Source of the DNA: a virus | DNA length: 32,130 nt | IMG/VR virus record: IMGVR_UViG_3300027833_000146 | Coordinates: 1-32,130 of that record | Direction: 5' to 3' (one strand) | In this document: in pieces, positions 2,579-31,011 of the stretch | How the letters are laid out: each line of letters starts with the position of its first letter | How positions within the stretch are numbered: the stretch's first letter is position 1 | Notes under the pieces: model-generated | The model's database searches: none | The model's input: the letters and a program-made list of their open reading frames with translations, nothing else | Told to the model about the DNA's origin: nothing | Program-made: the position numbers and the translations under genes

Positions 2579-2579
2579 A

Positions 2580-6851: not shown

Positions 6852-7591
6852 TGACTGACTTTACTACTTATAGTAACATACTACCTGACCCTAATAATCC
6901 TATTGGAAACGCTGGTCAGGGCGGTGTAAATCAAACAACTGCGGGGTTGGGCTACTCTTCTGTGTCTCTAACTTCGGAGCATAAAATTCTAAATTCTCGT
7001 ACTAATTCAGGAAGACTAGTAAGCAGAGAGCTTTCTGGTCATCAATGGAAAATATCAATAGGCTACAACCCTATGCTTCGTGATGACTTTGAACGCATTA
7101 ATGCTTTCTTGGTACAGAAGAGAGGGTCTATGACGCCTTTCTTTGTGTCTCTTCCTCAGTATAAAGCCCCACAAGATAGTACTTTCGCTACCTTTGTTGC
7201 TAGCAATACTTTTACAAACTCAGCTACAGGAGCAGCTGGTACAACTAATTTATTAATTAGCCATAGCTCGTACTCTTCATCAAACGGTGTTGTAAAGCCG
7301 GGCGATATTTTTACTATAACGGACGATACGAATAGTAACCATAAAAAAGCTTACCAAGTAACTCGAGTTGAAAAGACAGACGAAAGCTTAACCGGCGCAC
7401 CAGCTATTGCAAGTACTGCTTTGTTGATACATTTTAACCCGCCTCTACAAAGAGCTGTAGCTGCAAATAAGAATATAAACTTTAACAACCCCTTATTCCG
7501 TGTAACCATGGCAGGCGATGCAACTGAATATGAACTAAACACAAATAATTTATATAGCTTCTCTTTGAAGCTAGAAGAGGTCCAAGCATAA
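6851..7591 (+). CDS. distal-tail / minor tail protein
   Basis: A 246-residue protein between the tape measure and the giant tip protein, the place of lambda gpM or the distal tail protein of other siphoviruses. The most conserved-looking block is SGHQWKISIGYNPMLRDDFERIN followed by AFLVQKRGSMTPFFVSLPQY (residues about 62-102), matching the beta-strand/helix pattern of tube-like distal tail proteins. A Ser/Thr-rich stretch (about 117-150) may be a loop or small inserted domain, and the C-terminus returns to a strand-rich pattern (YSFSLKLEEVQA). It is translationally coupled at both ends by TAATG. It probably forms the ring joining the tube to the tip protein. The role is inferred from position and fold style. 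Confidence 0.6.
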   Translation: MTDFTTYSNILPDPNNPIGNAGQGGVNQTTAGLGYSSVSLTSEHKILNSRTNSGRLVSRELSGHQWKISIGYNPMLRDDFERINAFLVQKRGSMTPFFVSLPQYKAPQDSTFATFVASNTFTNSATGAAGTTNLLISHSSYSSSNGVVKPGDIFTITDDTNSNHKKAYQVTRVEKTDESLTGAPAIASTALLIHFNPPLQRAVAANKNINFNNPLFRVTMAGDATEYELNTNNLYSFSLKLEEVQA

Positions 7592-10500
7592 TGACAATAA
7601 GAACACTTAGCACAAATTCAACAAACCAAACTAACCTTGTAAACTCCTTGATGGACTATGAGCCTTTTATAGTTGCACATCTTGTAAAATTTGAAAGACC
7701 TCAAAGTGTTGCTCAGTATGGCGGCAAGGTTCAAGGGTTGGCTACTGACTTTACTTATATTAGTGATGCACAGTATGATATTAGCTTTGACGATGGTGGA
7801 AAAACCGTAAGCGGGGTAGCTATAGGCCCTCAGCTTTATCGTGCAAATAAAGTTCTGAAACTAGGGGTAATTAATGAAAGTATACAGGCCAAGGCATCTA
7901 ATCTAAGTTTAACACTTGACTCCTCGACTTTAGGTACTAGCGAGAATATTAGTGCAAGTTTTACTAGTACTCATATGACTACTAATGTTGATCTAGCTTC
8001 TGCAGGGTTTAGAGAAGGTGACAAAGTACTTTTAACAGGTGCTGGAAACAGTAATAATAACAAATACTTACGAATAGATACTTTTAGCGGAGAAGGAAAA
8101 ATAGTAGCTTTCACAGAAATTGATTCTATTACTTCTAACTCTTCTTTACAAACTTATGTTATCTCTTCTGCCTCTGAAGAGATAAACTCTCTTATTACGG
8201 ATAAAACATCAACGTCTTATACTAGTTATATTAATAGAGATGTACTAATCTATAGAGTACATATTAATCCAGATACGAGAGCCATTATAGGCGAGCCTTA
8301 TATATATTTTAAAGGCATCATTGGTTCCGCTGATATCAGTGAAAAACTAGATTCTTCTACTATAACGTGGAAACTTGCTAGTCACTGGGGAGACTTTATA
8401 CGCGTACAAGGGCGGTTGACAGACGATGCAACTCATCGTGCCTTGCAAGCAGCGGGAACCCCTGATTTAAGTGCTGTTATTCGTCCAGAATATGCTACAG
8501 ATTTAGGATTTTTACACGCTAATACCGCTTTGAATTTGATGGCAACGTATAACACCACAGAGATAAGCTACAAGCAAGTAGACATAAACGGTGGTTGGTT
8601 TGGAGGTAAACGCCTACGAGAGGTAGAAACAATAGTTCCTCGAACAACTGACCTACAGTTTAATATTCAAGCTAAGATGCTCCCTGTAGTTTACGGCGTC
8701 CGTAAAATTGACTCTTTTCCTATATTTGTAGACACTCATAAAGATACGTCTGCAGAAATTTACAGAGTTGACGCACTATGCGAAGGTAAAATTGCAGGTA
8801 TTCTAGATATACATATAGAAGACAATAGCACTATTTGTACTGATCTACCTGATTTTGATTTGCGTAACACAGCTGGAGCAAACTATGACAGCGAAAGTGT
8901 AGAAGTAGCATGTTACGGCAGAGCTGATCGCGGAGACACTATGTCTCACTATAGCGCAAGAGCGGGAGCTGGTACAAGGCAAAGACAATATGATTATAAT
9001 GAACGTTATGGAGAATATGCATACTACTACGGTACTCAGTATCAAACAATAGGCACAGGTACTAACAACCCTGCCTCCGGCTTAGCTACAGGTATACTTC
9101 ATGGAGGTACTCATACGATTACTTCGCCTCTATCTGCGTCTTTCTCTTTCTATCAGGGTAAGCCCTATCAAAAAGCAGACAATACTTTAGTGAACCTAGC
9201 TTCTGCTAATAACTTTAAGTTACAGAACGACTACTATACGGGTAGATCCACCTATTGGGGTGCAAATCATAAACTATTAGATACTGCTTATTGTGTAGGT
9301 AAGTATACAATTGCAGAAGGTGAGACAAGTTTACCGGATTTAAAATTCATTGTACGTGGAAGAGATCCCGAGTGTTATAACTATGATGGTAGTTATAGAG
9401 CTACTGGAACAGGCGCGGGTGCAGGAAATGCGTTACCAAGTGTTTTTGTTCTTGGAGCCGATGTTACTCTACATAGAACAGACAATGACGTTGCTATCGG
9501 TGGAACAGTACAGATTATTGATAAATGGTCAACGTTTGATTCTGATGGTGTAGCTGATCATAGATTTAGATGGTCTGTACCTCCTGCTTTAGGTAATATA
9601 ACTGCTTTTTATATGAAAAGCGGGAGTAGTGAGTGGCACATGCAGACATGGGACCATGTAGAAAACTCAGGAACAGTTCCAGCAGAAGCCTATGTTACTA
9701 TAGCTTCTACTACCGCAGGTACTGCAGCAGGTAGAAAAGTAACAATAAACACACCTAGTGCAGGACTCGCTTGGCTTCTTGCACAAGAAGACCTTGGACT
9801 TTCTCCTTATATAGGGGAGTTTGGAGAAGACTTTGCAAGTACTTTTAGAGACTATACTCCTGCTTCTGCTTCTGTAATTGATAACGTAGCAGGGCTCGCT
9901 GATACGGTAACTGCCGGAGACAGGCTCTATGTTAAAGACGGTATTATTCTTGCAAGTGGTGCTAGCTCGACAAATGGATATTATGTAGGTAATACTATTA
10001 CAGTTACAGATATATCTGGAGCTTTAGTATATACTCAAGTTCGGAAAATCACAGGATATGATGGAGCTACTAGAACAGCTACTGTAGATGCTGTCTGGGA
10101 CTATTCAAATATACCGAATACCTCCACTAAGTATGTTATAGGATCTATAGGAGACAAACGTGTAACTATTAATCCTGCTATGCAACTACTAGACTATATG
10201 ACTAATGATCGCTATGGAAAAGGGCTTGATATTGATAATGATATTGATTTACCTGCTTGGATAGCATCAGCAGAAGACTGTGACTCTAGATCCGCTGTAA
10301 GTATAGTGCTGCCTTCAGCTACTTCAATTGCCGAGGGTCAGAAGTGGAGATACCCTGCTACAGGTGTTCTTCAATGGCAAGGTACCGTATCATCTGTAGT
10401 AGCTCGAGGAAGCTATAAAGAAGTTACTTTTGAGGACTGTATTGGTAAATTAGGTAATAAATGGAATGATTGGAAAACTTTTGCAGCAGGAGAACTATAC

Positions 10501-13500
10501 TGGTACAAAGGCGTAGCTTATAACAAAAATAGTTCGGCAGGTACAATTAGTACAAAACCAACTGGTACTTCAGGTACAAGTGCAGTTACCGTAACAATTA
10601 AAAAGGTGACTGACTCAACTACTGCAAATGTTGATACTTCTTTAGTATCTGCAAATGGTAACCCCATAGTTAAAGCATGGTCTCCTTCTAGTGAAAATTA
10701 TGATGCATCAGGTTATAGCTTATATGACTCAGACGATGTTAAATACTGGAGATATGTAGGCTGGGACGATTCAGTACAAAGAGCTGTTACTAGACACCAA
10801 ACTAATCAAGTAGTAAATACTACTAATCCATTATTTGATAATATTAATAGAATGTTATCGCAGTTTAATGGTATTCTTCGGTATTCAGGAGGTAAGTACC
10901 AGCTAGCTATTAAAGGTAAGAAGCCTACATCTGTAAATATAGCGGAGCAAATATCTAATGATGATATAATTGGTACTATTAAATTATCTGACAAAGGACT
11001 AAAGAATAGTAAAAACTTTGTATCAACTTCTATAGTAGACCCACAGAATAAATTCGAAGGAAGAAGCGTATCTTTCTTTAATTCAGAGTATCTTAAGGAA
11101 GACAAAGGCATTCAGAAGAAAGGATCCTTCAGCCTTCCAGGTGTAACTAATTATCATAATGCTAGGTTTAATATCAAGCAGTATCTTGACGAGTCTCGCT
11201 ACGGACTAGAAATACAATTTAGAATGGCTCCTCGAGGTCTTCTACTATTAGCAGGATCTATCATAGAGCTTACTTATCCTCGTTTTGGCTATACTGCCAA
11301 AGAGTTTAGAATAACAAATCTCAACTTTACAAAAGACGGACTAGTCGATGTTACGGCAGATGAGCACAATGACAGTGCTTATGTAGTTGAACCAGAGACA
11401 AGCGGAGCACTGGGTCTTGTATCTGATGTAGGTTCTGGAGGCAACACACCTGCACCGAGTACATACAAACCAGGCAGACCGAGTCGCTTAGTATGTACAC
11501 AAAACGAGCAAAGCGCCGTCAGCCTTACCTGGACAAATACTGCTCCTTTTACAGTGGGCATTCATCTTACAGAAATTTACAGAAGCAGTGTAAATAACTT
11601 TGCAGATAGTGTAGCAGCAGGCTCTTTTGTAGTAGGAACCAAGTACCGAATAGCGACTCTTGGTAGCACTACACAAGCACAGTGGAATACAGTGGCTGCT
11701 TCTACTAACGAAGTATATAAAGTTGGAGATACCTTTACAGCCGCTGCTGTTGGTACAGGTAGTGGAACTGTGACTCGTACATTACTTGTAGGAACTTCTG
11801 ATAGCGATGGGTATATTGATCCTATTACTACAGGGACAGGTTCACAGGAGCGCTACTACTGGATACGTTATATTACTAGAGTGCCCGTACTGAATAGAAG
11901 TGGTGCTCAGTTTAGAAACGTAGCTTCTCCGTATTTCCCTAATAGTAATGATAGCGGTTTTGGAGCAGGGCAAGGTATTGGAGGTATTGGAGCTGCTAAT
12001 AATGCTGTAAGAAGTATTAAATTAAGTTTTGGAACTACTAACACTTTTGTCTACGAAACAGACGGTACAGGTATAGAAGCGGGCTACCCTAACTCTACAA
12101 CTCTTACTGCTACTGCTACAAATATTGTGGGTACCGATACTTACGTCTGGAAAAAGACTTCAAAAACTGGTACAGTATCTGTAATAAGCGGAGCAACAGG
12201 ACTTTCTTATACTTATATACCACCAAATGCGTTTACAGATATTCCTGAAACAATTTCAGTACATCTAACAGATACTGTGGGGTCTGATATTTATGAGGCT
12301 CTTGACGCCGTAAGTTTTAGTGGAACAAGAGTTGTTATTGATGGAACCTCCCCTTCCCCTACTAGCAGAGCTGATTTAAGTAATGATAATCATACTATTC
12401 CTGCAGACTTTAATGGGGCAAATGGAACCTATACAGGTGCCTCTACTACTCTCACTATACTTGAAGGTACCACAGATGTAACTAGTAGCTGGAGTATCTC
12501 TACAGCAGCATCTTCAGGAACAACAATTTCAGGTGCAGGTACTGCAAGTGTTGCTGTAACAGCTATGAATAATTCTACTACTTCGGGTACAGTAACTTTT
12601 ACAGCTACTAGAAGCGGGTATGCTAACCTCACAGCCGTGTTTAGTGTTACAAAACAAAACGCTGCTACACCTGGCACCTCACCAATAGTGTATAGAATAG
12701 GTGGAGCAACAGGAGCTGTAAATCAGGATACTTCGGGTACTTTTACTCCTGCTAACTTTACTGCAAATGCTCAGAAAATTGACGGTAACTCTACTCCAGT
12801 AGCTCTTACTTCGGGAGGTACTCTTAAGGTATACCGAAACGGCTCTGGCACCGCTGTTGCAAGCTCTACTAACGGTACTATAACATGGCCAGTTACTTCG
12901 GGTACTACAACTATTCGAGTAACCTTAGAAGTATCAAATACTGTAGTTGACGAAGAAACAATACCGATAGTTTCCGATGGTGTGCCTGGAAGTGACGGTA
13001 TAGGTGTTGATATTATATTTAAAAGAGCTGCAAGTGCAAGCGCCCCCACTGCTAGCGCCTCCGCAAACAATAGCTTAGGGTGGTATGATACAGTCAGCTC
13101 AGTAGTAGGTACAGGAAAATTATGGGCTAGTAAGGGCGTGCAAAACGCCGCAGGACTTTTTGTATGGACAACCCCTTATGAAGTAGAGGGAGAGGTGGCA
13201 AGAGAAGTTTACATATACAGACGTAATAATGCTACATCTACAGCACCTGCTTTACCTACTTCAGGTAATTTAGGTTCTTATAACTTTGCTACAAACTCCC
13301 TTTCAGGAGTTTCTCCTTGGTCTACACAGCCTCTGAGCCTTACACTAGATGAGGATAGAGTATGGGTATATGTAGCAACAGTTTCTGGGCACGCAAGTGA
13401 GACAGTTAATATTCCTTATACAGCTTGGACAGGAGGAGCACTATACGCTCAACGAGAAGATGGAGACGACGCTGATACTGTAGACTTTTACTTTAAAAGA

Positions 13501-15885
13501 ATAGTCGCAGGCGGTAGTCTAGCTAATCCAGGTAGCGCAGCGACCTCGAATGGGTGGAATACAAATGCCTCCACTTTTGCAGGCCTATCAGGTATTTTAT
13601 ATGCTATTAAAGGTACTTTATCTGGCACTACTTGGAGTTGGGGTGCTCCATATGCAATAGAGACCTCTCTCGTAAGAGAGATAGCAGTATATAGAAGAAA
13701 TTCAACTGCTTTTACCGACAATGGTACATTTAGATTCGCTGCACCTAACCATGCAACCACTGCACTCCGAACCGATCTTTTAACGGCTCCTACTAGTTGG
13801 TCTACTATACCTCTTAATACTCAAATAGATGGAGATATTGTCTATAAAAGCATTTGTCTTGTTACAGGCGAGCCAGGTCAGACAGTTACACCCTCATGGG
13901 GCTCGCCTAAGATATACACTGAACGAAATGATGGAGGCAGCGTAAACATTGCTTTTAAGAGAAGTACTACGGTTCCTACTACTAATCCTGGTACAAGCCC
14001 TACTTATCCCTCGAGCTCAAATGGATGGTATGACAACCCTGCAGCTGCCACGGGGACAGATCCTTTATATGCAATTAAAGGTAATTTATCGGGTACTACA
14101 TGGAGCTGGGGAGGTCCTTATAGAGTAGATGGACAATCAGCAGCAGAAATATACTTCTATTCAGATATTGCAAACCCTGCAGGTACTGCCCCTAGTTTTA
14201 CAGCCCCTACTTATAACTTTACCACTAACGCAGCGGTAAGTGTGCCTAGTGGCTGGAACACGAGTCCTCCAAGTCTTGTAAACAACGGAGACACTGTATA
14301 CGTTGTAGTAGTACTATATGCAGGATCACCTTCTGATACAGCAGCGAGTGCACAAAACACTAGCGCTGTATCAGTATATGCTCAGAAAACTGATGGTGAT
14401 GATGGAGAAGGTAACATAGTTGCCCAATTAAGTAATCCAAATGTCATTATCACAGCAAATAATGATGGTACTGTACCTTCAGGAAACTTCCTAGGAAGTG
14501 GCACTGACTTGCAATTATTTGAAGGCACTACTCCCATAAGGTATGCTAACTCAGGAACTACAGCTGGAACATTTGCGGTAGGCGCGAGCGGGAACGGAAG
14601 CGTTGTATCTAGCTCTGGTATAACTAGAGGCGCTGGTACCCAAGTTGGGACTTCCTCTACTTACTTTCTTAGGTTAGCAGACGCTAGTGCTATGACTACT
14701 GATACTGGTACTATCACTTTTAATATAGTGGGTAAAAAGCTAGATGGGACGGCGTTCGCTCCTTTCAGTATAGTACAGAGTTTCTCTAAATCTAAGACGG
14801 GCGACACTGTAGATACTGTAGACTTTTACTTTAAAAGAATAGTTGCGGGAGGTTCGACGGCAGCTCCAGGCTCAGGAGCAAATGCAAACGGGACACCGTC
14901 GACCTTGAATGGGTGGTACACCAACCCTGCAAGTGTTTCCTCAGGTGCTGGAGTTATATACACTATTAAAGGTACTTTTAATGGTACTACTTGGAGTTGG
15001 GGTACCCCCATTCCACTACAAGGTTCTCTAGTACGAGAGTTATCTGTATTCGCACGACAAGTCGCGGGCGCTGGCGTGCCTGGGTTTGTAGCTAGTCCGA
15101 GTCTTCAGAGGTATGGAAGCTTTACTTTTGCTATTCCAAGTGGAGCAGCAGAAAGCTTTACAACGCCTGTAGGCTGGGATAAAACCCCTCAGACTCTTGC
15201 GGCGGACGGTGATATTATATGGGAAAGTAGGGTTGTTGTTTCTGGAGAGCCTGGACAAACAGTACAACCTGCAGGATACGCCGCTTTAACTAAATATGCT
15301 CAACGAACTGATGGCACCCCCTCTACTGTTCCAGGTCCCAGTGGCCTTCGTACTATTCAAGGGTACTTATATTATGAAAAAAGTACAAACCTTACCGTCT
15401 TGCCACTTGCTCCAACCTTTACAACCTATACTATTGCTAGCGGGGATATTAATGGAGGCAGTGGCGCAAATGAAGTTCTAGGTTTAAGCGATCCTTCAAC
15501 AGTTAATAAATGGACAAACGAACCTCGTACACAAGATCCTACAAGTCCTAATAAGCACTATACAATAAGATACTATGGGACAGAAGCGGCGGCGAACTCA
15601 ACGACGATTACTGTAACTTATAGTAGTGTTGTTACTTATACGAATTTTGACGGAGTTGTCACTTTTAGTAATGGAACTTTTTCAAGTGGGGGCACTAGTA
15701 TTAATGGAACTACGGCGGCTACTACTATTGATGGGGGAAACATCACTACAGGTACTATAAATGCACAACAACTAGCAATTTCGAATAATAGTGCCGGCAG
15801 TGCAGGTATTTTTATGGACAGTACTAATAATAGAATAGACATACGAGATGGTTCAGCATTACGAGTACGCATCGGACAACTTTAA
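7591..15885 (+). CDS. giant tail tip / host specificity protein (gpJ-like)
   Basis: A 2764-residue central tip protein. Residues 1-330 resemble a hub domain otherwise encoded by a separate gene (DISFDDGGKTVSG, LKLGVINESIQAK). J-like core motifs follow: VVYGVRKIDSFPI (about 365), LLDYMTNDRYGKGL (about 866), NRMLSQFNGILRYSGGKYQL (about 1085) and VTADEHNDSAY (about 1255). Next come an FN3 domain (about 1290-1435) with a 55-residue insertion, Ig-like beta modules (about 1470-1800 and 2275-2404) and four copies of a 155-168-residue repeat (about 1805-2275 and 2407-2575). The C-terminus (TTIDGGNITTGTINAQQLAI, then RIDIRDGSALRVRIGQL) is typical of J-like trimer ends. Lambda gpJ has 1132 residues, so this protein is more than twice as long. 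It probably forms the tail tip and carries receptor-contact modules. Confidence 0.9.
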   Translation: MTIRTLSTNSTNQTNLVNSLMDYEPFIVAHLVKFERPQSVAQYGGKVQGLATDFTYISDAQYDISFDDGGKTVSGVAIGPQLYRANKVLKLGVINESIQAKASNLSLTLDSSTLGTSENISASFTSTHMTTNVDLASAGFREGDKVLLTGAGNSNNNKYLRIDTFSGEGKIVAFTEIDSITSNSSLQTYVISSASEEINSLITDKTSTSYTSYINRDVLIYRVHINPDTRAIIGEPYIYFKGIIGSADISEKLDSSTITWKLASHWGDFIRVQGRLTDDATHRALQAAGTPDLSAVIRPEYATDLGFLHANTALNLMATYNTTEISYKQVDINGGWFGGKRLREVETIVPRTTDLQFNIQAKMLPVVYGVRKIDSFPIFVDTHKDTSAEIYRVDALCEGKIAGILDIHIEDNSTICTDLPDFDLRNTAGANYDSESVEVACYGRADRGDTMSHYSARAGAGTRQRQYDYNERYGEYAYYYGTQYQTIGTGTNNPASGLATGILHGGTHTITSPLSASFSFYQGKPYQKADNTLVNLASANNFKLQNDYYTGRSTYWGANHKLLDTAYCVGKYTIAEGETSLPDLKFIVRGRDPECYNYDGSYRATGTGAGAGNALPSVFVLGADVTLHRTDNDVAIGGTVQIIDKWSTFDSDGVADHRFRWSVPPALGNITAFYMKSGSSEWHMQTWDHVENSGTVPAEAYVTIASTTAGTAAGRKVTINTPSAGLAWLLAQEDLGLSPYIGEFGEDFASTFRDYTPASASVIDNVAGLADTVTAGDRLYVKDGIILASGASSTNGYYVGNTITVTDISGALVYTQVRKITGYDGATRTATVDAVWDYSNIPNTSTKYVIGSIGDKRVTINPAMQLLDYMTNDRYGKGLDIDNDIDLPAWIASAEDCDSRSAVSIVLPSATSIAEGQKWRYPATGVLQWQGTVSSVVARGSYKEVTFEDCIGKLGNKWNDWKTFAAGELYWYKGVAYNKNSSAGTISTKPTGTSGTSAVTVTIKKVTDSTTANVDTSLVSANGNPIVKAWSPSSENYDASGYSLYDSDDVKYWRYVGWDDSVQRAVTRHQTNQVVNTTNPLFDNINRMLSQFNGILRYSGGKYQLAIKGKKPTSVNIAEQISNDDIIGTIKLSDKGLKNSKNFVSTSIVDPQNKFEGRSVSFFNSEYLKEDKGIQKKGSFSLPGVTNYHNARFNIKQYLDESRYGLEIQFRMAPRGLLLLAGSIIELTYPRFGYTAKEFRITNLNFTKDGLVDVTADEHNDSAYVVEPETSGALGLVSDVGSGGNTPAPSTYKPGRPSRLVCTQNEQSAVSLTWTNTAPFTVGIHLTEIYRSSVNNFADSVAAGSFVVGTKYRIATLGSTTQAQWNTVAASTNEVYKVGDTFTAAAVGTGSGTVTRTLLVGTSDSDGYIDPITTGTGSQERYYWIRYITRVPVLNRSGAQFRNVASPYFPNSNDSGFGAGQGIGGIGAANNAVRSIKLSFGTTNTFVYETDGTGIEAGYPNSTTLTATATNIVGTDTYVWKKTSKTGTVSVISGATGLSYTYIPPNAFTDIPETISVHLTDTVGSDIYEALDAVSFSGTRVVIDGTSPSPTSRADLSNDNHTIPADFNGANGTYTGASTTLTILEGTTDVTSSWSISTAASSGTTISGAGTASVAVTAMNNSTTSGTVTFTATRSGYANLTAVFSVTKQNAATPGTSPIVYRIGGATGAVNQDTSGTFTPANFTANAQKIDGNSTPVALTSGGTLKVYRNGSGTAVASSTNGTITWPVTSGTTTIRVTLEVSNTVVDEETIPIVSDGVPGSDGIGVDIIFKRAASASAPTASASANNSLGWYDTVSSVVGTGKLWASKGVQNAAGLFVWTTPYEVEGEVAREVYIYRRNNATSTAPALPTSGNLGSYNFATNSLSGVSPWSTQPLSLTLDEDRVWVYVATVSGHASETVNIPYTAWTGGALYAQREDGDDADTVDFYFKRIVAGGSLANPGSAATSNGWNTNASTFAGLSGILYAIKGTLSGTTWSWGAPYAIETSLVREIAVYRRNSTAFTDNGTFRFAAPNHATTALRTDLLTAPTSWSTIPLNTQIDGDIVYKSICLVTGEPGQTVTPSWGSPKIYTERNDGGSVNIAFKRSTTVPTTNPGTSPTYPSSSNGWYDNPAAATGTDPLYAIKGNLSGTTWSWGGPYRVDGQSAAEIYFYSDIANPAGTAPSFTAPTYNFTTNAAVSVPSGWNTSPPSLVNNGDTVYVVVVLYAGSPSDTAASAQNTSAVSVYAQKTDGDDGEGNIVAQLSNPNVIITANNDGTVPSGNFLGSGTDLQLFEGTTPIRYANSGTTAGTFAVGASGNGSVVSSSGITRGAGTQVGTSSTYFLRLADASAMTTDTGTITFNIVGKKLDGTAFAPFSIVQSFSKSKTGDTVDTVDFYFKRIVAGGSTAAPGSGANANGTPSTLNGWYTNPASVSSGAGVIYTIKGTFNGTTWSWGTPIPLQGSLVRELSVFARQVAGAGVPGFVASPSLQRYGSFTFAIPSGAAESFTTPVGWDKTPQTLAADGDIIWESRVVVSGEPGQTVQPAGYAALTKYAQRTDGTPSTVPGPSGLRTIQGYLYYEKSTNLTVLPLAPTFTTYTIASGDINGGSGANEVLGLSDPSTVNKWTNEPRTQDPTSPNKHYTIRYYGTEAAANSTTITVTYSSVVTYTNFDGVVTFSNGTFSSGGTSINGTTAATTIDGGNITTGTINAQQLAISNNSAGSAGIFMDSTNNRIDIRDGSALRVRIGQL
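13005..15315 (+). repeat. four-copy protein repeat inside the tip protein
   Basis: Four units begin near 13005, 13471, 13935 and 14811. Each has the order (D/N)xxFKR, then GWYxN, then (Y/W)(A/T)xKG, TxxWxW, GxPY, VRE(I/L)x(V/I)YxR, a W-S-T-x-P element and a terminal YAQRxDG. Units 2 and 4 share an almost identical DNA stretch at their starts (gatactgtagacttttactt and following bases), pointing to recent duplication. An Ig-like module (14413-14805) separates units 3 and 4. Confidence 0.85.
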
Positions 15886-18684: not shown

Positions 18685-19269
18685 ATGCCAGTACAAAATA
18701 CCAACTTTAATACGCTGATTACAGCGATCGATACAAAAGGACAAGCTCTAGCTGCTGCTGCGACCTCGGCAAAAGATCTTGTCTTTTTAGGCAAAACACT
18801 TGAGGCGCTCAATGTTACAGCTACAGTCTCAGATATTATTGGACAAGGGGACACACAAGTAGGTCTTGTAACTACACAAGGTACTACACAAGTAGGTCTT
18901 GTAACTACTGCGGGTACTACGCAGTTAGGTCTTGTAAACACTGCAGGCACTAACCAAGTTGCTTCTATTAACTCTGCCGCAGCTACGTTTAGTACTCACC
19001 CTCAAGGTACCACTACAAGCACAAGTAAAACTCTCGTAGCTAATGAGTTTGTACTTGTAGACACAGCGACTCAAACAATGACTCTTCCTGCAGGCGTAGC
19101 AGGGCAGTCTGTAGTTTATATTGCTGTAGGCAATTTTGTAGATACAGTTGTCGCTCCGAATGGTTCCGAAAAGATTATGGGCTTAGCTCAGTCAATGACG
19201 ATCGATAAAGCCAATACCACAATCACACTTATGTACCACTCAGCCACTCATGGCTGGCGTGCATTTTAA
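18685..19269 (+). CDS. fibre stalk 1 with GW cap domain
   Basis: A 194-residue stalk. The N-terminal third is helical (ITAIDTKGQALAAAATSAKD), then come three 11-residue repeats TQVGLVTTxGT (about 57-89). A C-terminal domain of about 80 residues follows: TLVANEFVLVDTATQTMTLP, then VYIAVGNFVDTVVAPNGSEK, ending TLMYHSATHGWRAF. This cap recurs at the ends of the proteins at 21196 and 25731 and, in diverged form, at 23073. Each is followed by a variable gene. GGAG precedes the ATG, which abuts the previous stop. It probably carries the tip encoded next to it. Confidence 0.6.
   Translation: MPVQNTNFNTLITAIDTKGQALAAAATSAKDLVFLGKTLEALNVTATVSDIIGQGDTQVGLVTTQGTTQVGLVTTAGTTQLGLVNTAGTNQVASINSAAATFSTHPQGTTTSTSKTLVANEFVLVDTATQTMTLPAGVAGQSVVYIAVGNFVDTVVAPNGSEKIMGLAQSMTIDKANTTITLMYHSATHGWRAF
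18853..18960 (+). repeat. 33-base coding tandem repeats
   Basis: Three 33-base units (18853-18885, 18886-18918, 18919-18951) and a partial fourth encode TQVGLVTTQGT, TQVGLVTTAGT and TQLGLVNTAGT. Length multiples of three keep the frame, so copy number could change by slippage without disrupting the stalk. Confidence 0.85.
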
Positions 19270-19282
19270 TTAGGAGAAATAA

Positions 19283-20725
19283 ATGAGTAATTTAACAGAT
19301 TTTTTTGGAAAAGGCGGGCCAAGGGTACCAGGAAAAGCCGCACACTCGCAGCCTGCTTTTGTAGTAATGGGGAGTAACTCTAGTAGCTATTTAAAAGCTA
19401 TTGTTTATGATCACTCTTTAAAGTCGCTTGGAACTTTCGAATCCCGTATGACAAATAACAGTGAGTTTGGTAGCTCAGGTAATTGGAACTATAACACTAA
19501 TCCGAGTGGCGAATATTCCAATAATAACGGGCACGGTATCTCTAAAAATGGTTATTTAGGTAATACAATAGGCTATACAACAAAAGAAACCTTTGAGCAA
19601 ATGACGAGCTATGATAGAGGCATAAATCCCGCGAGGGAGACACATTACGATTACGGTGGCGTACCAACTGCAATGGTAGGAACAAATCCTGGCATAAAGC
19701 AAAACTATGCTATAGGTACTTCTCACATCCTAGGCGTAGGTACCGCGGCTTTCATAAGATCTTGCCCCCGGAGTAATCGACGTATTATGAGAAACTTTGA
19801 TGGTCAAAATATCGGAGGCGCGATTGGCAATGAAAATGATCTGGTTTACGTGCAAACCGTAGGCATGTTAACCTCTGGATATCGTTTAGCCGCAGGAGGC
19901 TTTAGTTATAATCAAAATTCAGGCAATGCTGTTATTATTGAACGCGACAATTCCAGCACCAACACCGAATGGCGTCCTGTCCTCATAAAAAACTTTCCAG
20001 ACCCTGCAAAATATGTATCTGATCAAAAAGCTTGGGGAGCCGCAATTACGGCTATAACCGCAGTTTCGGCTAACCGAGTTGTCGGAGGCGGTACGAGCTC
20101 ATCTAGTAGAGATAGCATTGGCAATAATATCACTAAAGCACTTCTTTGTGATAATAATGACGTGTTTATTATGGGCAGTACAACTAATGGCGTACAGGTA
20201 CGACGGTGGCGTTGGAACTCAGGCACCAATACCTGGGACGCGCCAACAGCGGCGGATAGAGATTGGACTACTAAATATCATAACGATGGAACCGCCTCCT
20301 ATCCAAATTGGTGTATGTCTTTAGATGGCAAAACAGCTGTTCTTATGACCCACTCATACTATTATATGACCGGATACTATTTAACAATAATAGATGTAGC
20401 TACGGGAAATGCTCATAACTATTATCATACTACTAGCAGTGGCAGTTATAGTATAACTCCTATCGGAGCTTCTGAATTTTTATTTTCCCATAGCACCAAC
20501 ACTGATGGTTTTGCGGGAGTGTATACGACTGTAATATCATGGGATAAGATACAATATGATGCAACCCCAGACCATTTTACGGCCCATGCCCACCACCCTG
20601 CTCACATGACGCCAATTTATCGATTTATTGATGCGCCGCATAATAGCACAAACTATCCGACTATATGCCCTCTGATTGATGTTGATAACGAAAGCATTGT
20701 ATTTGCAGAAAAAGGAGAACTATAA
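19283..20725 (+). CDS. variable fibre tip 1 (candidate receptor-binding protein)
   Basis: A 480-residue protein with a short Gly-containing leader (MSNLTDFFGKGGPRVPGKAA) that resembles the starts of the other tips in the array, then a long Asn/Ser/Tyr/Trp-rich body. Strand-turn repeats of about 50-60 residues (AFVVMGSNSSSYLKAIVYD, LLCDNNDVFIMGSTT, WCMSLDGKTAVLMTHS, YLTIIDVATGNAH) suggest a beta-propeller-like fold. Aromatic and His-rich loops (DHFTAHAHHPAHMTPIYRF) look surface-exposed. AGGAG precedes the ATG and the stop overlaps the chaperone gene (TAATG). I do not recognise a named family. The receptor-binding role is inferred from location after a stalk and before a chaperone. Confidence 0.5.
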   Translation: MSNLTDFFGKGGPRVPGKAAHSQPAFVVMGSNSSSYLKAIVYDHSLKSLGTFESRMTNNSEFGSSGNWNYNTNPSGEYSNNNGHGISKNGYLGNTIGYTTKETFEQMTSYDRGINPARETHYDYGGVPTAMVGTNPGIKQNYAIGTSHILGVGTAAFIRSCPRSNRRIMRNFDGQNIGGAIGNENDLVYVQTVGMLTSGYRLAAGGFSYNQNSGNAVIIERDNSSTNTEWRPVLIKNFPDPAKYVSDQKAWGAAITAITAVSANRVVGGGTSSSSRDSIGNNITKALLCDNNDVFIMGSTTNGVQVRRWRWNSGTNTWDAPTAADRDWTTKYHNDGTASYPNWCMSLDGKTAVLMTHSYYYMTGYYLTIIDVATGNAHNYYHTTSSGSYSITPIGASEFLFSHSTNTDGFAGVYTTVISWDKIQYDATPDHFTAHAHHPAHMTPIYRFIDAPHNSTNYPTICPLIDVDNESIVFAEKGEL

Positions 20726-21195: not shown

Positions 21196-21729
21196 ATGTC
21201 AAAATCAAAAGCAAGACATATGGGTGACATGATGGGAGCAGACGGTATCGTAAAGACTACCTCTGCTCCTGCAGTTGCCACTGCACGTTTAGCTACGGGG
21301 TCAGTCACGACAGATAAAATTGCAGATGCCAATGTTACAACCGCAAAGATCACAGATAGTAATGTTACAACCGCAAAGATCGCAGATGCCAATGTTACAA
21401 CTGCAAAGATCGCAGATAACGCTGTTAATTCCGATAAGGTTACTCCTACTCTTGCGGTGGGCGTACCTACTACCGTAATCAGCAGCTCAGCTACAGCAGT
21501 GGCAAATAATCACTATTTTATAGATACCGCCACACAAACACTTACTCTTCCTGCTAGCCCAACGGCTGGGCAGAAAGTATTGGTAACTGTGGGTAATTTC
21601 ACAGATACTACAGTTGCTCGGAATGGCGAAAATATCGCATCTCTCGCTTCTGACTTAATAATAGACGTAGCAAACATGGGTGTAACCCTTTGCTACACGA
21701 ACACATCAAGGGGGTGGGTAGTACTATGA
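21196..21729 (+). CDS. fibre stalk 2 with GW cap domain
   Basis: A 177-residue stalk. The N-terminus (MSKSKARHMGDMMGADGIVK) leads into a run of 10-residue repeats of the type NVTTAKIADA (about 36-85), a classic shaft repeat of phage fibres. The last 80 residues form the same cap as stalk 1: SSATAVANNHYFIDTATQTL, VTVGNFTDTTVARNGENI, then a terminal SRGWVVL. The stop overlaps the next start as ATGA, so tip 2 starts at 21726. A 36-base gap with a small AGCTT/AAGCT stem separates it from the previous gene. Function as a fibre shaft is inferred from repeats. Confidence 0.65.
   Translation: MSKSKARHMGDMMGADGIVKTTSAPAVATARLATGSVTTDKIADANVTTAKITDSNVTTAKIADANVTTAKIADNAVNSDKVTPTLAVGVPTTVISSSATAVANNHYFIDTATQTLTLPASPTAGQKVLVTVGNFTDTTVARNGENIASLASDLIIDVANMGVTLCYTNTSRGWVVL
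21331..21420 (+). repeat. 30-base coding tandem repeats
   Basis: Three 30-base units (21331-21360, 21361-21390, 21391-21420) start with AATGTTACAAC and encode NVTTAKITDS, NVTTAKIADA and NVTTAKIADN. Differences are few, mostly in the last two or three codons, so the units are recent duplications. Confidence 0.85.
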
Positions 21730-22877
21730 CAGCATTAACAGACTTAATTTCAGCAGGCGGAGGCGGCTCAGAGATTAACGAGATCAAATTCTTTACGGAT
21801 AGAGGGAGCTCATTTACCGATTCTAATGGGCAGGTTTGGTTGAAGGCCGGGGCTAAGACAGTGGACGTGACGACCTACCCAGATGCTGATAGTGGTTTGA
21901 CCACGCTCTCATTTAGTAGCGATTACCAAGCGGCGGAGAGTTCATCTACTTCTATGAACGGCAAAGGGTTAAGCCTGTCTTCTGACAACGTGTGGGCACT
22001 AAATCTTGACAGCGGCACGCAAATCCGCGTGACCGACCTAGCTACGGGTACGGTATCTCACTTTACTCCTTACAATGGATTTAACCCCGCGGGCGTTGGC
22101 TACGTCAAGGCAGCAGCCAGTTCGGGGCTCACAACACCTCTTTCTAATGCCAATGGTTACTTTATGGGAGTGTTGGGGGGATTTAATGGCACTTCTCTTC
22201 TGAGCTTTCACCTAATCGGGGGTTCTGGTACTGATGCAGGTAAGTCTAATGGCCTACAAGCATGGCTTGTATTGAGGGATCCTTCAGGCACGGGACTAAA
22301 CGCTTCACCTTATAATTATACTGCTACCACCCAGCCCGCAGCTTTTCATTGGAATCCTGCAACTCGATATTTATATGTGATGTTTGCTTCCTCCACAACT
22401 AGGTGCCACTTGTTTATTTACAACATGAGTGGCAACGATTGGGGAAACATCAACGCAGGTAATGGAACGTCGACTCAATTAAATGCTTCGTCATTCATAG
22501 ACTGGCAAACGCAGTCTGGGGCTAACTCTATTTATCATATGTCAGGAAGTTCTACGCACCTATATGTACATTACCGCAATGCATCTTACACCCGTAACAT
22601 AAGAAAAATACCTTTGTCGGGTAATCTGAGCTGGGCGTCGGGCACAGATGTTGGAACCAGCAACTCAGGCCTTCTGCAAAATGCTGATGGTACTTTTTCA
22701 ACTCTTAACTTCCGAGACTACCCCGTTTATTATCGGACTGCTGGGTCAACGGAAAAATTTCTAGTACACGACAATCCTAACAACAAGCTGCACGAGATTA
22801 CTTTAGACGTTCCCATAATTGGTCAAGCCGCATGGGATTACCGCAGGGCGCAAACCCCTTATCAGAGGATAAAATAA
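21726..22877 (+). CDS. variable fibre tip 2 (candidate receptor-binding protein)
   Basis: A 383-residue protein. I start it at ATG 21726, overlapping the stalk stop (ATGA) with GGGGTGGG upstream, rather than at the upstream TTG (21690); this gives MTALTDLISAGGGGSEINEI, matching the other tips. Next is QVWLKAGAKTVDVTTYPDAD, a motif shared with tip 3. The body has repeated strand-turn blocks (NVWALNLDSGTQIRVTDLAT, YLYVMFASSTTRCHLFIYN, HLYVHYRNASYTRNIRKIPL) suggesting a beta-propeller-like domain. The C-terminus WDYRRAQTPYQRIK resembles that of tip 3. It overlaps the following chaperone (TAATG). The adhesin role is inferred. Confidence 0.55.
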   Translation: MTALTDLISAGGGGSEINEIKFFTDRGSSFTDSNGQVWLKAGAKTVDVTTYPDADSGLTTLSFSSDYQAAESSSTSMNGKGLSLSSDNVWALNLDSGTQIRVTDLATGTVSHFTPYNGFNPAGVGYVKAAASSGLTTPLSNANGYFMGVLGGFNGTSLLSFHLIGGSGTDAGKSNGLQAWLVLRDPSGTGLNASPYNYTATTQPAAFHWNPATRYLYVMFASSTTRCHLFIYNMSGNDWGNINAGNGTSTQLNASSFIDWQTQSGANSIYHMSGSSTHLYVHYRNASYTRNIRKIPLSGNLSWASGTDVGTSNSGLLQNADGTFSTLNFRDYPVYYRTAGSTEKFLVHDNPNNKLHEITLDVPIIGQAAWDYRRAQTPYQRIK

Positions 22878-23072: not shown

Positions 23073-24683
23073 ATGGCGTTAACTCGAATCAAGTCTGACA
23101 GCATAACAACAGGTGTTGTTGAAGGCAAAGTAGATGCACACTTATCTGGAGGAACGGGTATTACCCTATCCTCTGGAGTCATTGCGGTCGACTCAACTAT
23201 TGCAACAAACGCGTCTGTCACAGCTGCAATTGATGGACTATTAGACTCCGCTCCGGGTGCATTAAATACTCTCAACGAGTTGGCTGCATCTCTCGGAGAT
23301 GATGCTGATTTTGCAAATACTGTAACTACTAGTATAGCTGCTAAGCTTCCTACTGCAGGAGGCACTCTAACAGGTCCTCTTACTATTAACGATACAAGTG
23401 CTACTAGAGTTTCTGCAGGTACAACAGCACAGAGAACTTCAGGAACTCCGGGAGACTTTCGTTATAATAGTACAACAGGTAAGTTTGAGGGGTATTCAAG
23501 CTCTTGGGGAGACATTGGAGGAGGAGCTAATTTTACTTTAAATCAGTTTACCGGCGATGGATCTACTACTGTATTTACCTTATCAGGTTCAGCGTTAGAG
23601 GAGCTTAATAGCCTACTTTATTTAGATGGAGTCTATCAGTCAAAATCAAGCTATGATTTAACGGGTACTACCCTTACTTTTTCTCCTGCTCCTGCATCAG
23701 GAGTATCTATAGAATTAATGGGGATAGTTATGTCTCCCCCCACCACAAGTAACCAATTTACTTTAAATCAGTTCACGGGAGACGGATCCACAGTAGCCTA
23801 CACACTTACACTTTCTCCCTTTTCTGATAACGAAACTAGTGTCTATATTAACGGGGTATACCAGTCAAAATCAAATTATGGTGTATCTGGTACTACTCTT
23901 ACTTTTACTACTGCTCCTCCTGCAGGTACTTCTGTTGAGGTAATGGTAGCAAGTAGTGTGGTCGTTTCTATAAGCACTCCAAATGATGGCACTGTTACAA
24001 CATCAAAAATTGTAGATAGTGCTGTTACTTCTGCAAAGATTGCTAATGGTTCAGTTACTGCTGATAAGCTAGCTGCGGGTGCAGGAGGTGCTTTTAATGA
24101 CTTTGTGATTAAAACAGCTAGCTACACAGCAGTTGCTCGTGATCAAATTATTACTAATAAAGCTGTAGCTGCTCCTGCTACTTATGCTGTAACGGTTTCC
24201 GGAGGAGTGTTTCATATTGATGGATCTGCTAACCCTGTATTAGTTCTCACACGAGGAATAACGTATACTTTTACACAGTCTGATAGTACTAATGCTAACC
24301 ACCCTATTGCTTTTAAAGATACAGCAGGAAATAGTTATACAACTGGAGTAACTTCAACAGGTACTCCAGGAAATGCTGGAGCACAAACAGTATTCGTAGT
24401 ACCTGCAAATGCACCTTTAGGAGGTCTTCGATACTACTGTACAGTACATGGCAACGGTATGGGAAATACAATAAACATAGTTGAACCCGGTCTTACAATT
24501 ACACTTCCGGTCTCACCTGTAGCAGGCAATTCAATATTTATTAAAAATGCAGGAGCTGCTACAGTAACAGTGGGTCGTAATGGCTCAAACATTAATTCAA
24601 CAGCAGACGATGGTGAACTGATTACAGATGCAGCGGCAACGCTAGTATATGTAGACGGCACCATCGGATGGAAGGAGCTATAA
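23073..24683 (+). CDS. large fibre stalk 3 with cupredoxin-like domain
   Basis: A 536-residue mosaic fibre. In order: N-terminal MALTRIKSDSITTG and a coiled segment with LLDSAPGALNTLNELAASLG (about 50-70, a widespread fibre helix); GTTAQRTSGTPGDFRYNSTT and GKFEGYSSSWGDIG (about 111-148); two FTGDGST beta modules (about 156-218 and 231-294); VTSAKIANGSVTADKLA repeats (about 309-335); a cupredoxin-like domain (about 368-470) with candidate copper ligands H410, C456, H459 and M463; and a C-terminal piece (PVAGNSIFIKNAGAATVTVG to IGWKEL) related to the GW cap. ATG follows GGAG. It probably bears tip 3. Confidence 0.7.
   Translation: MALTRIKSDSITTGVVEGKVDAHLSGGTGITLSSGVIAVDSTIATNASVTAAIDGLLDSAPGALNTLNELAASLGDDADFANTVTTSIAAKLPTAGGTLTGPLTINDTSATRVSAGTTAQRTSGTPGDFRYNSTTGKFEGYSSSWGDIGGGANFTLNQFTGDGSTTVFTLSGSALEELNSLLYLDGVYQSKSSYDLTGTTLTFSPAPASGVSIELMGIVMSPPTTSNQFTLNQFTGDGSTVAYTLTLSPFSDNETSVYINGVYQSKSNYGVSGTTLTFTTAPPAGTSVEVMVASSVVVSISTPNDGTVTTSKIVDSAVTSAKIANGSVTADKLAAGAGGAFNDFVIKTASYTAVARDQIITNKAVAAPATYAVTVSGGVFHIDGSANPVLVLTRGITYTFTQSDSTNANHPIAFKDTAGNSYTTGVTSTGTPGNAGAQTVFVVPANAPLGGLRYYCTVHGNGMGNTINIVEPGLTITLPVSPVAGNSIFIKNAGAATVTVGRNGSNINSTADDGELITDAAATLVYVDGTIGWKEL
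24166..24480 (+). other. cupredoxin-like domain of stalk 3
   Basis: The encoded segment LTRGITYTFTQSDSTNANHP, then VVPANAPLGGLRYYCTVHGN and GMGNT, carries the plastocyanin-type order His (410), then Cys-x2-His-x3-Met (456, 459, 463). The His to Cys distance of 46 residues is close to the 47 of plastocyanin (H37 to C84). Copper binding is a prediction from the residues only. Confidence 0.6.
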
Positions 24684-24684
24684 G

Positions 24685-25665
24685 ATGGCAATTACATTAG
24701 GTGGTAGTAGTGGGGGCGGTGGCACTGAAATTAACGGCTTAGTAGAAGGGATGACAGGTAAGTCTATGTACACTACCGCTTCGGGGGAGGTTTACTTGCA
24801 AACTGGGAGGACCTTAACAGACGTTGCTTCTTACCCCGACGCACAACTAAACATAGGGATAACAAAAGACCCTACGACAGTGGCAATCAGTAACCCGTGG
24901 TACGGTTCAGCAAGTGATGGGGTTTTAGGCTTTGGTATGACTACTTCCAAGGTGATAGTTATCTCCACCGTTACCGACGCAACAGGGGCGTGGGCGTGGT
25001 CAGCCAATGTCGGTTTAGGTGCTGAGTACAACACTTGTACTTCTACCACCCTTCAATCCTCATGTGATATGGTTGTGGTGGATAATGGAGGCTCTAAGGA
25101 TTTATACGTTTTAGGTTATAGCGTAACAGCTACTAATGGTGTTGTAATCAAACACGCTGGTGTCACTAGTACAAGTCTAGGATCAGTTTCAACCATAACC
25201 CTGCCTTCGTTCATGACAGTACCTAGAGGGCTTACATGGGATGGTACTTATTTCTGGGTGTATGATTGGAATACTCAATCAGTACATAAGCTAACTTCTT
25301 CTTTTGCGGACACTGGCGAGTCGCACTATATTGGCTTTGGCCATTGCAAACTTGAATATGATTCCGGAGCATCAACCGTCTGGGCTTTCTTTGCAAGTAA
25401 CACAAATATGGAAGTAGCGGGTTTAGCTCTATCCACAGGAAGTAGAATGTGGCCTCACGCGATGAACCTAAACCAACCTCTTAAGGGTATGGTCTACCAT
25501 GCTACCACTAATACGATGGGGCTAATTAAAGGTTCAGGCAACGTTATCCACCCAGTAGACATGACTGAAAAAACGGTAGGGCATCCGTTCGCTATAGTTG
25601 ATTCGAGCAATGCTAGATCACCTCGAAGTGAGAACTACATTAGCTACTATAAGAGGATTAAATAA
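24685..25665 (+). CDS. variable fibre tip 3 (candidate receptor-binding protein)
   Basis: A 326-residue protein with a Gly-rich leader (MAITLGGSSGGGGTEINGL) and the motif EVYLQTGRTLTDVASYPDAQ, shared with tip 2. The body contains strand-turn blocks (DLYVLGYSVTATNGVVIKH, GLTWDGTYFWVYDWNTQSV, TVWAFFASNTNMEVAGLALS) consistent with a beta-propeller-like fold. The C-terminus SENYISYYKRIK parallels the tip 2 end. GGAAGGAG precedes the ATG. The stop overlaps the next gene (TAATG), so unlike cassettes 1, 2 and 4 there is no chaperone gene directly after it. The adhesin role is inferred from the paired stalk and the variable middle. Confidence 0.55.
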   Translation: MAITLGGSSGGGGTEINGLVEGMTGKSMYTTASGEVYLQTGRTLTDVASYPDAQLNIGITKDPTTVAISNPWYGSASDGVLGFGMTTSKVIVISTVTDATGAWAWSANVGLGAEYNTCTSTTLQSSCDMVVVDNGGSKDLYVLGYSVTATNGVVIKHAGVTSTSLGSVSTITLPSFMTVPRGLTWDGTYFWVYDWNTQSVHKLTSSFADTGESHYIGFGHCKLEYDSGASTVWAFFASNTNMEVAGLALSTGSRMWPHAMNLNQPLKGMVYHATTNTMGLIKGSGNVIHPVDMTEKTVGHPFAIVDSSNARSPRSENYISYYKRIK

Positions 25666-25730: not shown

Positions 25731-26078
25731 ATGACGCAGTTCACAGCAGCAAAAATAGCTGCTGACGCTATCACAGCAGCAAAAATAGCTTCAGTGCCTG
25801 TTGCAGTAGGTATTACGTCTGTCGTTACAGCTACGTCCTTAACAGCAGCTGTAAACACACACATTTATGTCAGTGCAGCTACTCAGACTATTACACTTCC
25901 CGCTTCTCCGAGCCTAGGACAGAGAGTCCTTATTACAGTGGGAAATTTTGTGGACACGGTAGTCGGCAGGAACGGATCAAACATTATGAGTCTAGCAGAA
26001 GACCTTACAATGGACACTGCTTATCTTTCAATTCAGTTTATATACACAGATTCTACAGGAGGATGGATAATAGCATGA
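25731..26078 (+). CDS. fibre stalk 4 with GW cap domain (remnant or re-started)
   Basis: A 115-residue frame in the same phase as the severed leader just upstream, beginning at an ATG that only exists in this frame because of the indels. Residues 1-30 hold degenerate shaft repeats (FTAAKIAADAITAAKIASV). The rest is the GW cap: SLTAAVNTHIYVSAATQTI, VLITVGNFVDTVVGRNGSNI, ending STGGWIIA. No ribosome binding site stands before ATG 25731, so translation may depend on re-initiation after the TAG or on readthrough. The intact form would have 137 residues. The stop overlaps tip 4 (ATGA, 26075). It may be functional without its extreme N-terminus. Confidence 0.55.
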   Translation: MTQFTAAKIAADAITAAKIASVPVAVGITSVVTATSLTAAVNTHIYVSAATQTITLPASPSLGQRVLITVGNFVDTVVGRNGSNIMSLAEDLTMDTAYLSIQFIYTDSTGGWIIA

Positions 26079-29133: not shown

Positions 29134-31011
29134 TTAAATCTCACACCCGCCAGCGACGCAGGCAAGCTCTTGTGAGCCTATTGTATTATCTTCTTTTTCA
29201 AACTGAGCTAAATCTTCCCAATTCACATTTTGTGGCATAGCCGCTACTAGCTCGTCGTATTTTTCTGCACTGATGTCTTCATAAGGTGCTTGCTGATAAA
29301 CGTGGTCACTAGTCGGTAATAGACTAATACCGGAACACATATCAAAGTTATCCCAAATCCATTGTGCAACTTGTAAATACTCACTGTCAGTATAGTATAC
29401 AGTTACACTTGGTTTATGTTCACACCAATGATTTTGATAGGTTTTCCATAAAGCTAACTGCTCCATAGCACCTACTTCTTTCACACAAGTACTTGACTCT
29501 GGTGCTTTCACAGGGAAGCTAAACACTACAGAAGAGGCAGACATAACGTCATTTTCTACTGGGAATCCTGCTTGTTCCATATAGAGAGCAAGTGGGTCTT
29601 TTTTGTCGCTACGCACCCTGCGAATATAATGCTTAGAGAAACGAGGATGAATCCCGGAAGCACTGTCAACAAGCTGAGAGACAGTGCCACTAGGCTTAAC
29701 GCATGTAATAGCCACAGACTGATTAACACCAAGCTTTGCAGCCCATTCTTTATTTGTTTCAATACTAACATCCCTCATCTCCTCTAGCCATCCAGCTAAC
29801 TCTGTGTTGTTAGGGTCACCTAAAACTGCATGATCCATAATTCCTGTTAAGCTCACACCCAACAATGCTTCTTCTTCAGTGTTACGCTTCCATCGCACCC
29901 GCAGATACCTAAAGTCAGTCAGGCTAGACTGTAGAGTACCAATAATGGTTGCTACTCTTACTTTTTTCTTCAGCGTTTCAAGGTTATCATCTGCTCGTAC
30001 AACCACTTCTGATAGATTACAAAACTCATTACTACGGAGAATAATTTCCGAGCAAGGGTTAGTACCGAAGTCATGCGTTGCATCTCTACGACCATTCCGT
30101 GCTGCGATCTTCTGAGCTGCTACACGACTAAAGATTCCTCGCTCACCTGCTTTAGATTCATACAAGTTCTTCATCTCATTAAGGTATGCTTCGAAGTCAG
30201 GCTTCTCAGTATACGCTACAGAGTTGTTTGCGAGACGACGTTGACCTTCGTTCTCCCACCAAGCACCAGACTTAGCTTTTGACATTCGCTGATCAGAGAG
30301 ATTTGAAAGACTAATAAGAGCAGAACGACGTACACCGCCTACTACTACAATATCCGCAATCTTACATACAACATCATGACACTCGATACTTGTCAACTTA
30401 CGACCTGCTGCTTTCTGGAATATATTTACACAGAAACGAAACAAATCTTCTAAAGGCTCAGGTCCTGAGGCTCTTCCACCAAATGTCTTAAGTCTAGCAC
30501 CTGCTGGACGTACTCGGCTCATGTCCCACTGAGGTAGTTTACCTGCATAAAGCATGGCAATCAACTCACGGAAGGCACTCGACCATCCTAGCTTACTATC
30601 ACTTACTACAATAGTAGAACTTGTTTTGTGGAATGTTTCAGCTACTTCTGGTAGTTTAGTAATAAAATTACGCTCTACACTGAAGCCTACTCCAGTTCCG
30701 CACATTAATACATACATAAGCTCGTCAAAAGCTCGTGGATGGTCAATATGTAAATAACTACAGTTAAAGCCTGCTACGTTATCACGTTTAAGTGCTTCTC
30801 CTGCTGTCATCATACAACGCATAGAAGGCATAACTTCCATCGCATGGATAGCGTCATAAATCTCTTGACCTTCTTCGTCATTCAATTGCTCTCTTTCTTT
30901 GAAGAAATCAACATAACGTTGAACTGTCTCTTCCCAAGTCTCTCTACGGCCTTCTTCTTCTAGCCAACGTGCATACCTGCTTTTATGAATAAAACTTTGA
31001 TACTGATCCAT
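29134..31011 (-). CDS. nrdJ: adenosylcobalamin-dependent ribonucleoside-triphosphate reductase (class II)
   Basis: A 625-residue class II reductase that converts ribonucleoside triphosphates to deoxy forms for phage DNA synthesis, using vitamin B12 as radical source. Key residues are present: C84 (FNCSY), the NPC320-S-E322 loop with C320 as the thiyl-radical cysteine, and C331 eleven residues on, the same spacing as C408 and C419 of the Lactobacillus leichmannii enzyme. C84 would be the partner of C331 (C119 there). The C-terminal pair C618-x4-C623 corresponds to C731-x4-C736. PSGTVSQLVDSASGIHPRF is also typical. It is shorter than the 739-residue bacterial enzyme. The start overlaps the exonuclease stop (TAATG). 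The host must supply or import B12. Confidence 0.95.
   Translation of the reverse strand: MDQYQSFIHKSRYARWLEEEGRRETWEETVQRYVDFFKEREQLNDEEGQEIYDAIHAMEVMPSMRCMMTAGEALKRDNVAGFNCSYLHIDHPRAFDELMYVLMCGTGVGFSVERNFITKLPEVAETFHKTSSTIVVSDSKLGWSSAFRELIAMLYAGKLPQWDMSRVRPAGARLKTFGGRASGPEPLEDLFRFCVNIFQKAAGRKLTSIECHDVVCKIADIVVVGGVRRSALISLSNLSDQRMSKAKSGAWWENEGQRRLANNSVAYTEKPDFEAYLNEMKNLYESKAGERGIFSRVAAQKIAARNGRRDATHDFGTNPCSEIILRSNEFCNLSEVVVRADDNLETLKKKVRVATIIGTLQSSLTDFRYLRVRWKRNTEEEALLGVSLTGIMDHAVLGDPNNTELAGWLEEMRDVSIETNKEWAAKLGVNQSVAITCVKPSGTVSQLVDSASGIHPRFSKHYIRRVRSDKKDPLALYMEQAGFPVENDVMSASSVVFSFPVKAPESSTCVKEVGAMEQLALWKTYQNHWCEHKPSVTVYYTDSEYLQVAQWIWDNFDMCSGISLLPTSDHVYQQAPYEDISAEKYDELVAAMPQNVNWEDLAQFEKEDNTIGSQELACVAGGCEI

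Follow-up and report, generated by a model that had tools for sequence, protein, structure and literature searches.

A cupredoxin-fold domain with a type-1 copper ligand set in the tail fibre of a marine T5-like phage

Does a phage tail fibre carry a genuine type-1 copper domain, or do four of its residues merely recall one? The question was raised by a virus contig of 32,130 bases, analysed over its whole length (hereafter, the window), in which one tail-fibre protein had been predicted, from the letters alone, to hold His, Cys, His and Met in the order known from plastocyanin. The type-1-copper-like domain proposed there was borne out both by its predicted fold and by the conservation of its ligands among homologues, as detailed below.

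The domain is carried by a 536-aa protein encoded on the plus strand (23073–24683), in which Pfam recognised DUF4183 together with the Phage_T7_tail N-terminal domain. The same ORF was matched by PHROG tail fiber protein families, and its neighbours in the tail cluster encode a tape measure, a distal tail protein, fibres and a fibre-assembly protein. The tape measure of this tail module matches T5-like phages, and we assign the carrier as the tail fibre of a marine T5-like siphophage.

Within the carrier, the cupredoxin-fold domain spans residues 368–474 (24174–24494, plus strand). These bounds were derived from a 60-sequence homologue alignment of the domain (A1), from AlphaFold2 and from the Foldseek and VIA-align matches to cupredoxins; they replace the less accurate interval 24166–24480 given originally, while the domain itself stood. 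Alignment with paralogous fibres placed the domain inside a C-terminal fibre tip domain, the first part of which precedes the insert (24102–24170, plus strand) and the remainder of which follows it (24489–24680, plus strand). Specifically, the cupredoxin sits between the NKAVA and LTITLP motifs of the tip domain, a position that is empty in three sister fibres of the window, which align over the same tip domain without a cupredoxin (21196–21729, 25731–26078 and 18685–19269, all on the plus strand). In close relatives, the same arrangement of a cupredoxin within the tip domain was observed. At another locus (L003), two tandem fibre genes (2314–3504 and 2–1174) were found to combine a near-identical shaft and cupredoxin with different C-terminal tips, which, at the level of sequence, suggests that tips are exchanged beyond the cupredoxin, on its downstream side.

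All four predicted ligand residues are present on the plus strand where they had been claimed, namely His410 at the first equatorial position (24300–24302), Cys456 at the thiolate position (24438–24440), His459 at the second equatorial position (24447–24449) and Met463 at the axial position (24459–24461). These assignments draw on the placement of the residues and on the conservation and covariation data presented below and, for the thiolate, also on the Cys count: Cys456 is the sole Cys among the 536 residues of the fibre protein, of whose four His residues His410 and His459 are two. The spacings described for the window fibre were likewise accurate (a His-to-Cys distance of 46, Cys-x2-His and His-x3-Met). 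With regard to the comparison with plastocyanin, the order of the ligands held but the exact spacing did not, as plastocyanin has Cys-x2-His-x4-Met (for instance, that of Prochlorococcus, L500); the Cys-x2-His-x3-Met spacing of the window agrees with the Copper-bind proteins L530 and L531 rather than with plastocyanin. The closeness of the His-to-Cys distance to the 47 residues quoted for plastocyanin, which had been pointed out originally, proved undiagnostic because this distance ranges from 43 to 63 within the family and is 37 in the L500 plastocyanin.

AlphaFold2 modelled the domain from A1 with high confidence (pLDDT 96.4, pTM 0.89) as nine strands. In domain numbering, one strand of the model ends at residue 89 (Cys), residue 92 (His) lies in the loop that follows, and residue 96 (Met) is located near the start of the last strand; the His, Cys, His, Met order is accompanied by the strand and loop placement typical of cupredoxins. 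Taken with the Foldseek and VIA-align comparisons, the model displays the Greek-key beta-sandwich of the cupredoxin fold, and the fold that had been anticipated was therefore recovered with confidence. When the C-terminus of the fibre was modelled, the tip remained below a pLDDT of 50, too low to show the insertion site or its orientation; the cupredoxin part was unchanged.

Among PDB structures, Foldseek placed rusticyanin first (E 2e-3, probability 1.00, 20% identity), with multicopper oxidases prominent below it and unrelated Ig-like domains further down the list; none of the E-values went past 1e-3. An Ig-like domain was considered, since titin Ig was among these lower matches, but it was rejected in view of the first rank of rusticyanin and because an Ig assignment leaves the ligand triad unexplained. 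VIA-align gave its best match to the N-terminal cupredoxin of the copper nitrite reductase from Hyphomicrobium denitrificans (2dv6, 6tfo), with Z 9.2 and an rmsd of 2.5 over 96 of 107 residues at 23% identity. That cupredoxin holds a type-1 copper, with His80 and His122 (numbering of strain 1NES1) among its ligands (PMC7201279). The aligned range (29–138) runs on for 16 residues past His122, and the phage model for 15 residues past His459; the agreement of these ranges is consistent with superposed ligands, and it is an agreement of ranges and not a measurement of distances. That the four residues come together at one site is thus supported indirectly, through this superposition of the whole domain on copper proteins, the strand and loop placement and the covariation described below.

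Sequence kinship with copper proteins was detected at the level of profiles. A1 was compared with a profile of the plastocyanin family, for which 35 loci were used, and a match was obtained with a probability of 93.7 and a score of 42.3, the His, Cys, His and Met columns being in register. Reversed profiles scored 12–13 and 100 column shuffles reached at most 19.3. Masking of the ligand columns lowered the score to 15.3; most of the signal was thereby removed, which indicates that similarity outside the site is weak. A second link to the accepted members of PF00127 was provided by a Prochlorococcus protein of 148 aa (L505), which has a signal-peptide-like start, scores above the Pfam Copper-bind cut-off and matched at E 3e-7 an A1 profile built without it. 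This protein was the only match to the phage profile among the fetched Copper-bind loci.

Family databases and single sequences were less telling. Neither Pfam nor NCBIfam called a cupredoxin in the window domain or protein, no cupredoxin name was attached to the domain in PHROGs, and the PF00127 Copper-bind cut-off was reached by neither the protein nor the domain, one of the 60 homologues coming to E 0.034. The At5g54830-like domain (PF25489), a plant family, matched weakly by profile in 14 of the 60 homologues (best E 3.9e-5) and only marginally, under the cut-off, in the window domain (E 0.082). Single-sequence database searches, including those of the PDB, returned nothing significant, and the hits of a profile search of the PDB were chiefly antibody chains, drawn in by a common YYC pattern. 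As these PDB searches were uninformative, sequence alone misses the solved relatives.

We then considered whether the four ligands are conserved, and whether they are conserved together. In A1, the two His and the Cys are each at least 90% conserved, and Met is invariant. Over a broader set of distinct domains, the His/Cys/His/Met set was intact in 310 of 376. Every one of these 310 copies has a Cys-to-His step of exactly 3, whereas the His-to-Met step is 3 in 195, 4 in 114 and 5 in one. Exactly one Cys was found in 306 of the 310, which speaks against a disulfide role, and that reading was rejected. Conservation among homologues, on which the original prediction had staked itself, was therefore upheld: the ligands are kept across relatives, and their loss tends to be a joint one. 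This was most evident from the two His (H1 and H2), which, in the set reduced at 85% identity, were both present in 157 copies and both absent in 31, one or the other being found singly in just 2 (157/31/1/1). In line with this, when mutual information was ranked over all 3741 column pairs, H1-H2 came first, C-H2 second and H1-C sixth.

The degenerate copies behind this covariation came largely from two scans, and the signal weakened when these were left out. Removal of either one gave ranks of 3, 12 and 32 or of 4, 21 and 14 for the same three pairs, and removal of both gave 44, 168 and 196, with only 8 degenerate copies remaining. By parsimony, 9 changes were counted for each His and 14 for Cys. 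Only 3 independent pairs were located on well-supported branches, too few for significance in a sign test, and a phylogenetic test of joint loss consequently lacks power. Conservation as a unit thus stands on the 310 intact copies, the joint loss and the covariation, and is weaker without the degenerate-rich samples. The Met463 column behaved differently, in that it did not covary with the other ligands and was kept in nearly all degenerate copies; its persistence in domains devoid of the other three indicates a structural role as well, besides any axial contact. Dozens of homologues lack His, Cys and His and yet keep the rest of the domain; the site having been lost repeatedly while the fold was kept, the scaffold is of use without metal.

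Homologues were present in 154 phage records and at hundreds of IMG/VR loci. The window sequence alone matched 78 viral loci, the alignment used as query gave more than 500 candidates, and searches started from other subfamilies added more. Most of the named phage records come from marine phages of Synechococcus, Prochlorococcus, SAR11 and Methylophilales. Within the tail proteins of other phages, the domain takes N-terminal, internal or C-terminal placements; it occurs in the T4-like gp9 connectors of S-SSM4 and S-CAM22, and we read it as a mobile module of the virion, which beyond this fibre is found in connectors of the gp9 type, wedge proteins of the baseplate and long fibres. Among 13 cultured phages, 12 carry the intact set in at least one copy; these include T4-like and T7-like phages that infect cyanobacteria, SAR11 and Methylophilales. 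That conservation extends from phages of photosynthetic hosts to those of heterotrophic ones speaks against a role in photosynthetic electron transport. In cyanophage PSS2, the annotated baseplate wedge subunit gp080 (L544, 1498–1836) consists of a cupredoxin-like domain on its own, from which His, Cys and His have been lost. The domain was also encountered in large ORFs of marine bacterial genomes, some of which copies may be viral DNA in single-cell assemblies; no plasmid record carrying it was found.

Several explanations of the site were weighed. That the His, Cys, His, Met order arose by chance in an unrelated beta-sandwich is scarcely credible: the failure of single-sequence database searches to return a significant match would fit it, but it is contradicted by the fold prediction, the profile alignment, the conservation and the joint loss, and the pattern, as judged from the aligned sequences, exceeds chance. 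Very improbable, too, is the notion of a relic, that is, an Ig-like adhesion scaffold in which the ligand residues are kept for packing alone. The dozens of triad-less homologues that retain the rest of the domain, Met included, speak for it; however, packing residues are not expected to vanish together, as the two His largely do, and an unpaired Cys would hardly be maintained for this purpose in nearly all intact extracellular domains. The idea of a structural relic, raised originally for this fibre, was accordingly set aside for the window copy and applies instead to a minority of its relatives. We also regard as distinctly unlikely a redox-active copper fibre, in which Cu(II)/Cu(I) cycling would sense or exploit redox conditions at the host surface or in the periplasm, for instance to trigger DNA ejection or to conduct electrons over a short path. 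Electron-transfer cupredoxins have this very ligand set, with single-Cys loops of the form Cys-x2-His-x(2-3)-Met, and the top-scoring structures are domains that transfer electrons or belong to oxidases; nevertheless, no partner domain was recognised beside the cupredoxin, its diverse placements offer no common neighbour fit to be a partner, and in several clades the fold persists without the site.

A further alternative concerns the metal. The cytoplasm, in which fibres fold, offers little free copper, and Zn(II) can occupy type-1 sites. The Cys-His2(-Met) site could thus take up Zn(II) during fibre assembly and serve as a pure structural clamp, of which, as of any metal clamp, the joint loss of three ligands would be expected. 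We consider this unlikely. The near-universal Met at the axial position and the membership of the bridging relative L505 in Copper-bind point the other way, although both are compatible with zinc all the same, and zinc is the less likely filling of the two.

The reading that we favour, and hold to be probably correct as a whole, is that residues 368–474 are a genuine cupredoxin-fold domain, in which all the ligands of a type-1 copper site are in place, and act as a metal-organised adhesion module. Its parts are not equally firm. A cupredoxin fold with a functional metal site is very likely; copper is, on balance, the native metal; and a structural or adhesive use, in preference to a redox one, is an even call. 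Under the adhesion-module reading, the site would hold a metal, copper in the first place, taken up either during assembly or after lysis. At the copper end of the domain, this metal would pin the Cys-His-Met loop, which would in turn shape a surface that we infer to be exposed and to take part in host adsorption. By analogy, iron ions organise the tip of the T4 fibre. There, iron organises the receptor-binding end of the long fibre through ligands that are His-x-His pairs; the two systems would resemble each other in having a metal-organised receptor-binding end and differ in fold, ligands and metal.

Comparison with known cupredoxins helps to place the phage domain. Like plastocyanin and azurin (PF00127), it has the cupredoxin fold and the His, Cys-x2-His, Met order, and the four ligands align, but those proteins are secreted electron carriers, while the phage domain lies within a tail fibre and below the Pfam cut-off. 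It is no plastocyanin PetE, which is a small secreted carrier with Cys-x2-His-x4-Met, whereas the window has an x3 spacing within a 536-aa fibre. Rusticyanin, the top Foldseek match, is also a single-domain type-1 copper protein, yet, at about 150 residues, it exceeds the phage domain in length, and it carries electrons as a free protein. The Hyphomicrobium nitrite reductase cupredoxin is likewise tethered to a larger multimeric protein (PMC7201279), although there it is fused to a copper enzyme core, and the phage domain adjoins no recognised redox domain. A cupredoxin encoded by marine phages is already known in the cyanophage plastocyanin PetE, an auxiliary metabolic protein (PMC3037559), which, unlike the fibre domain, works in the infected cell and is not a virion component. 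While cupredoxins have long been known and phage PetE is known as well, no account of phage tails bearing a cupredoxin with copper ligands was found in the openly licensed literature.

Since tail proteins of aquatic phages contain the module by the hundreds, virions may carry copper at the point of host contact. As a tentative generalisation, aquatic tailed phages of several kinds would have working type-1 copper centres in the fibres, gp9-type connectors and baseplate proteins of their virions, with the bound copper serving host recognition or acting as a redox-sensitive switch. If copper is indeed held, many ocean phages have a transition metal just where they meet the host, copper chemistry becomes tied to infection, and virions join the marine copper ligands; copper on virions would also be the counterpart of iron-bearing phage tails. 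The proposal offers a testable reason for the conserved Cys-x2-His-x(2-3)-Met motif common to hundreds of unannotated tail proteins, and definition of the domain, which Pfam and NCBIfam miss in the window protein, should improve the annotation of tail proteins from cyanophages, pelagiphages and related phages.

A number of additional observations were made. Tandem cupredoxin pairs occur in ORFs of L087, L130, L137, L139, L146, L156 and L161, and a 1873-aa ORF in a Prochlorococcus single-cell assembly (L100) contains several copies of the domain, both intact and degenerate. With regard to the window itself, neither tRNA genes nor Rfam families were found in its 32,130 bases. On its minus strand, a class II (B12-type) ribonucleotide reductase is encoded (29134–31011), which is 59–62% identical to Roseobacter-group, rhizobial and SAR116 phage enzymes. 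An ORF of 2764 aa (7591–15885, plus strand), flanked by the genes for the distal tail and for fibre assembly, has no PHROG match and probably encodes the central tail tip or the straight fibre. Three more plus-strand ORFs located among the fibre genes (21690–22877, 24685–25665 and 19283–20725) are supported by neither Pfam nor PHROG families; the first two have a short N-terminal motif in common (37% over 41 residues) and may represent receptor-binding tips in their own right.
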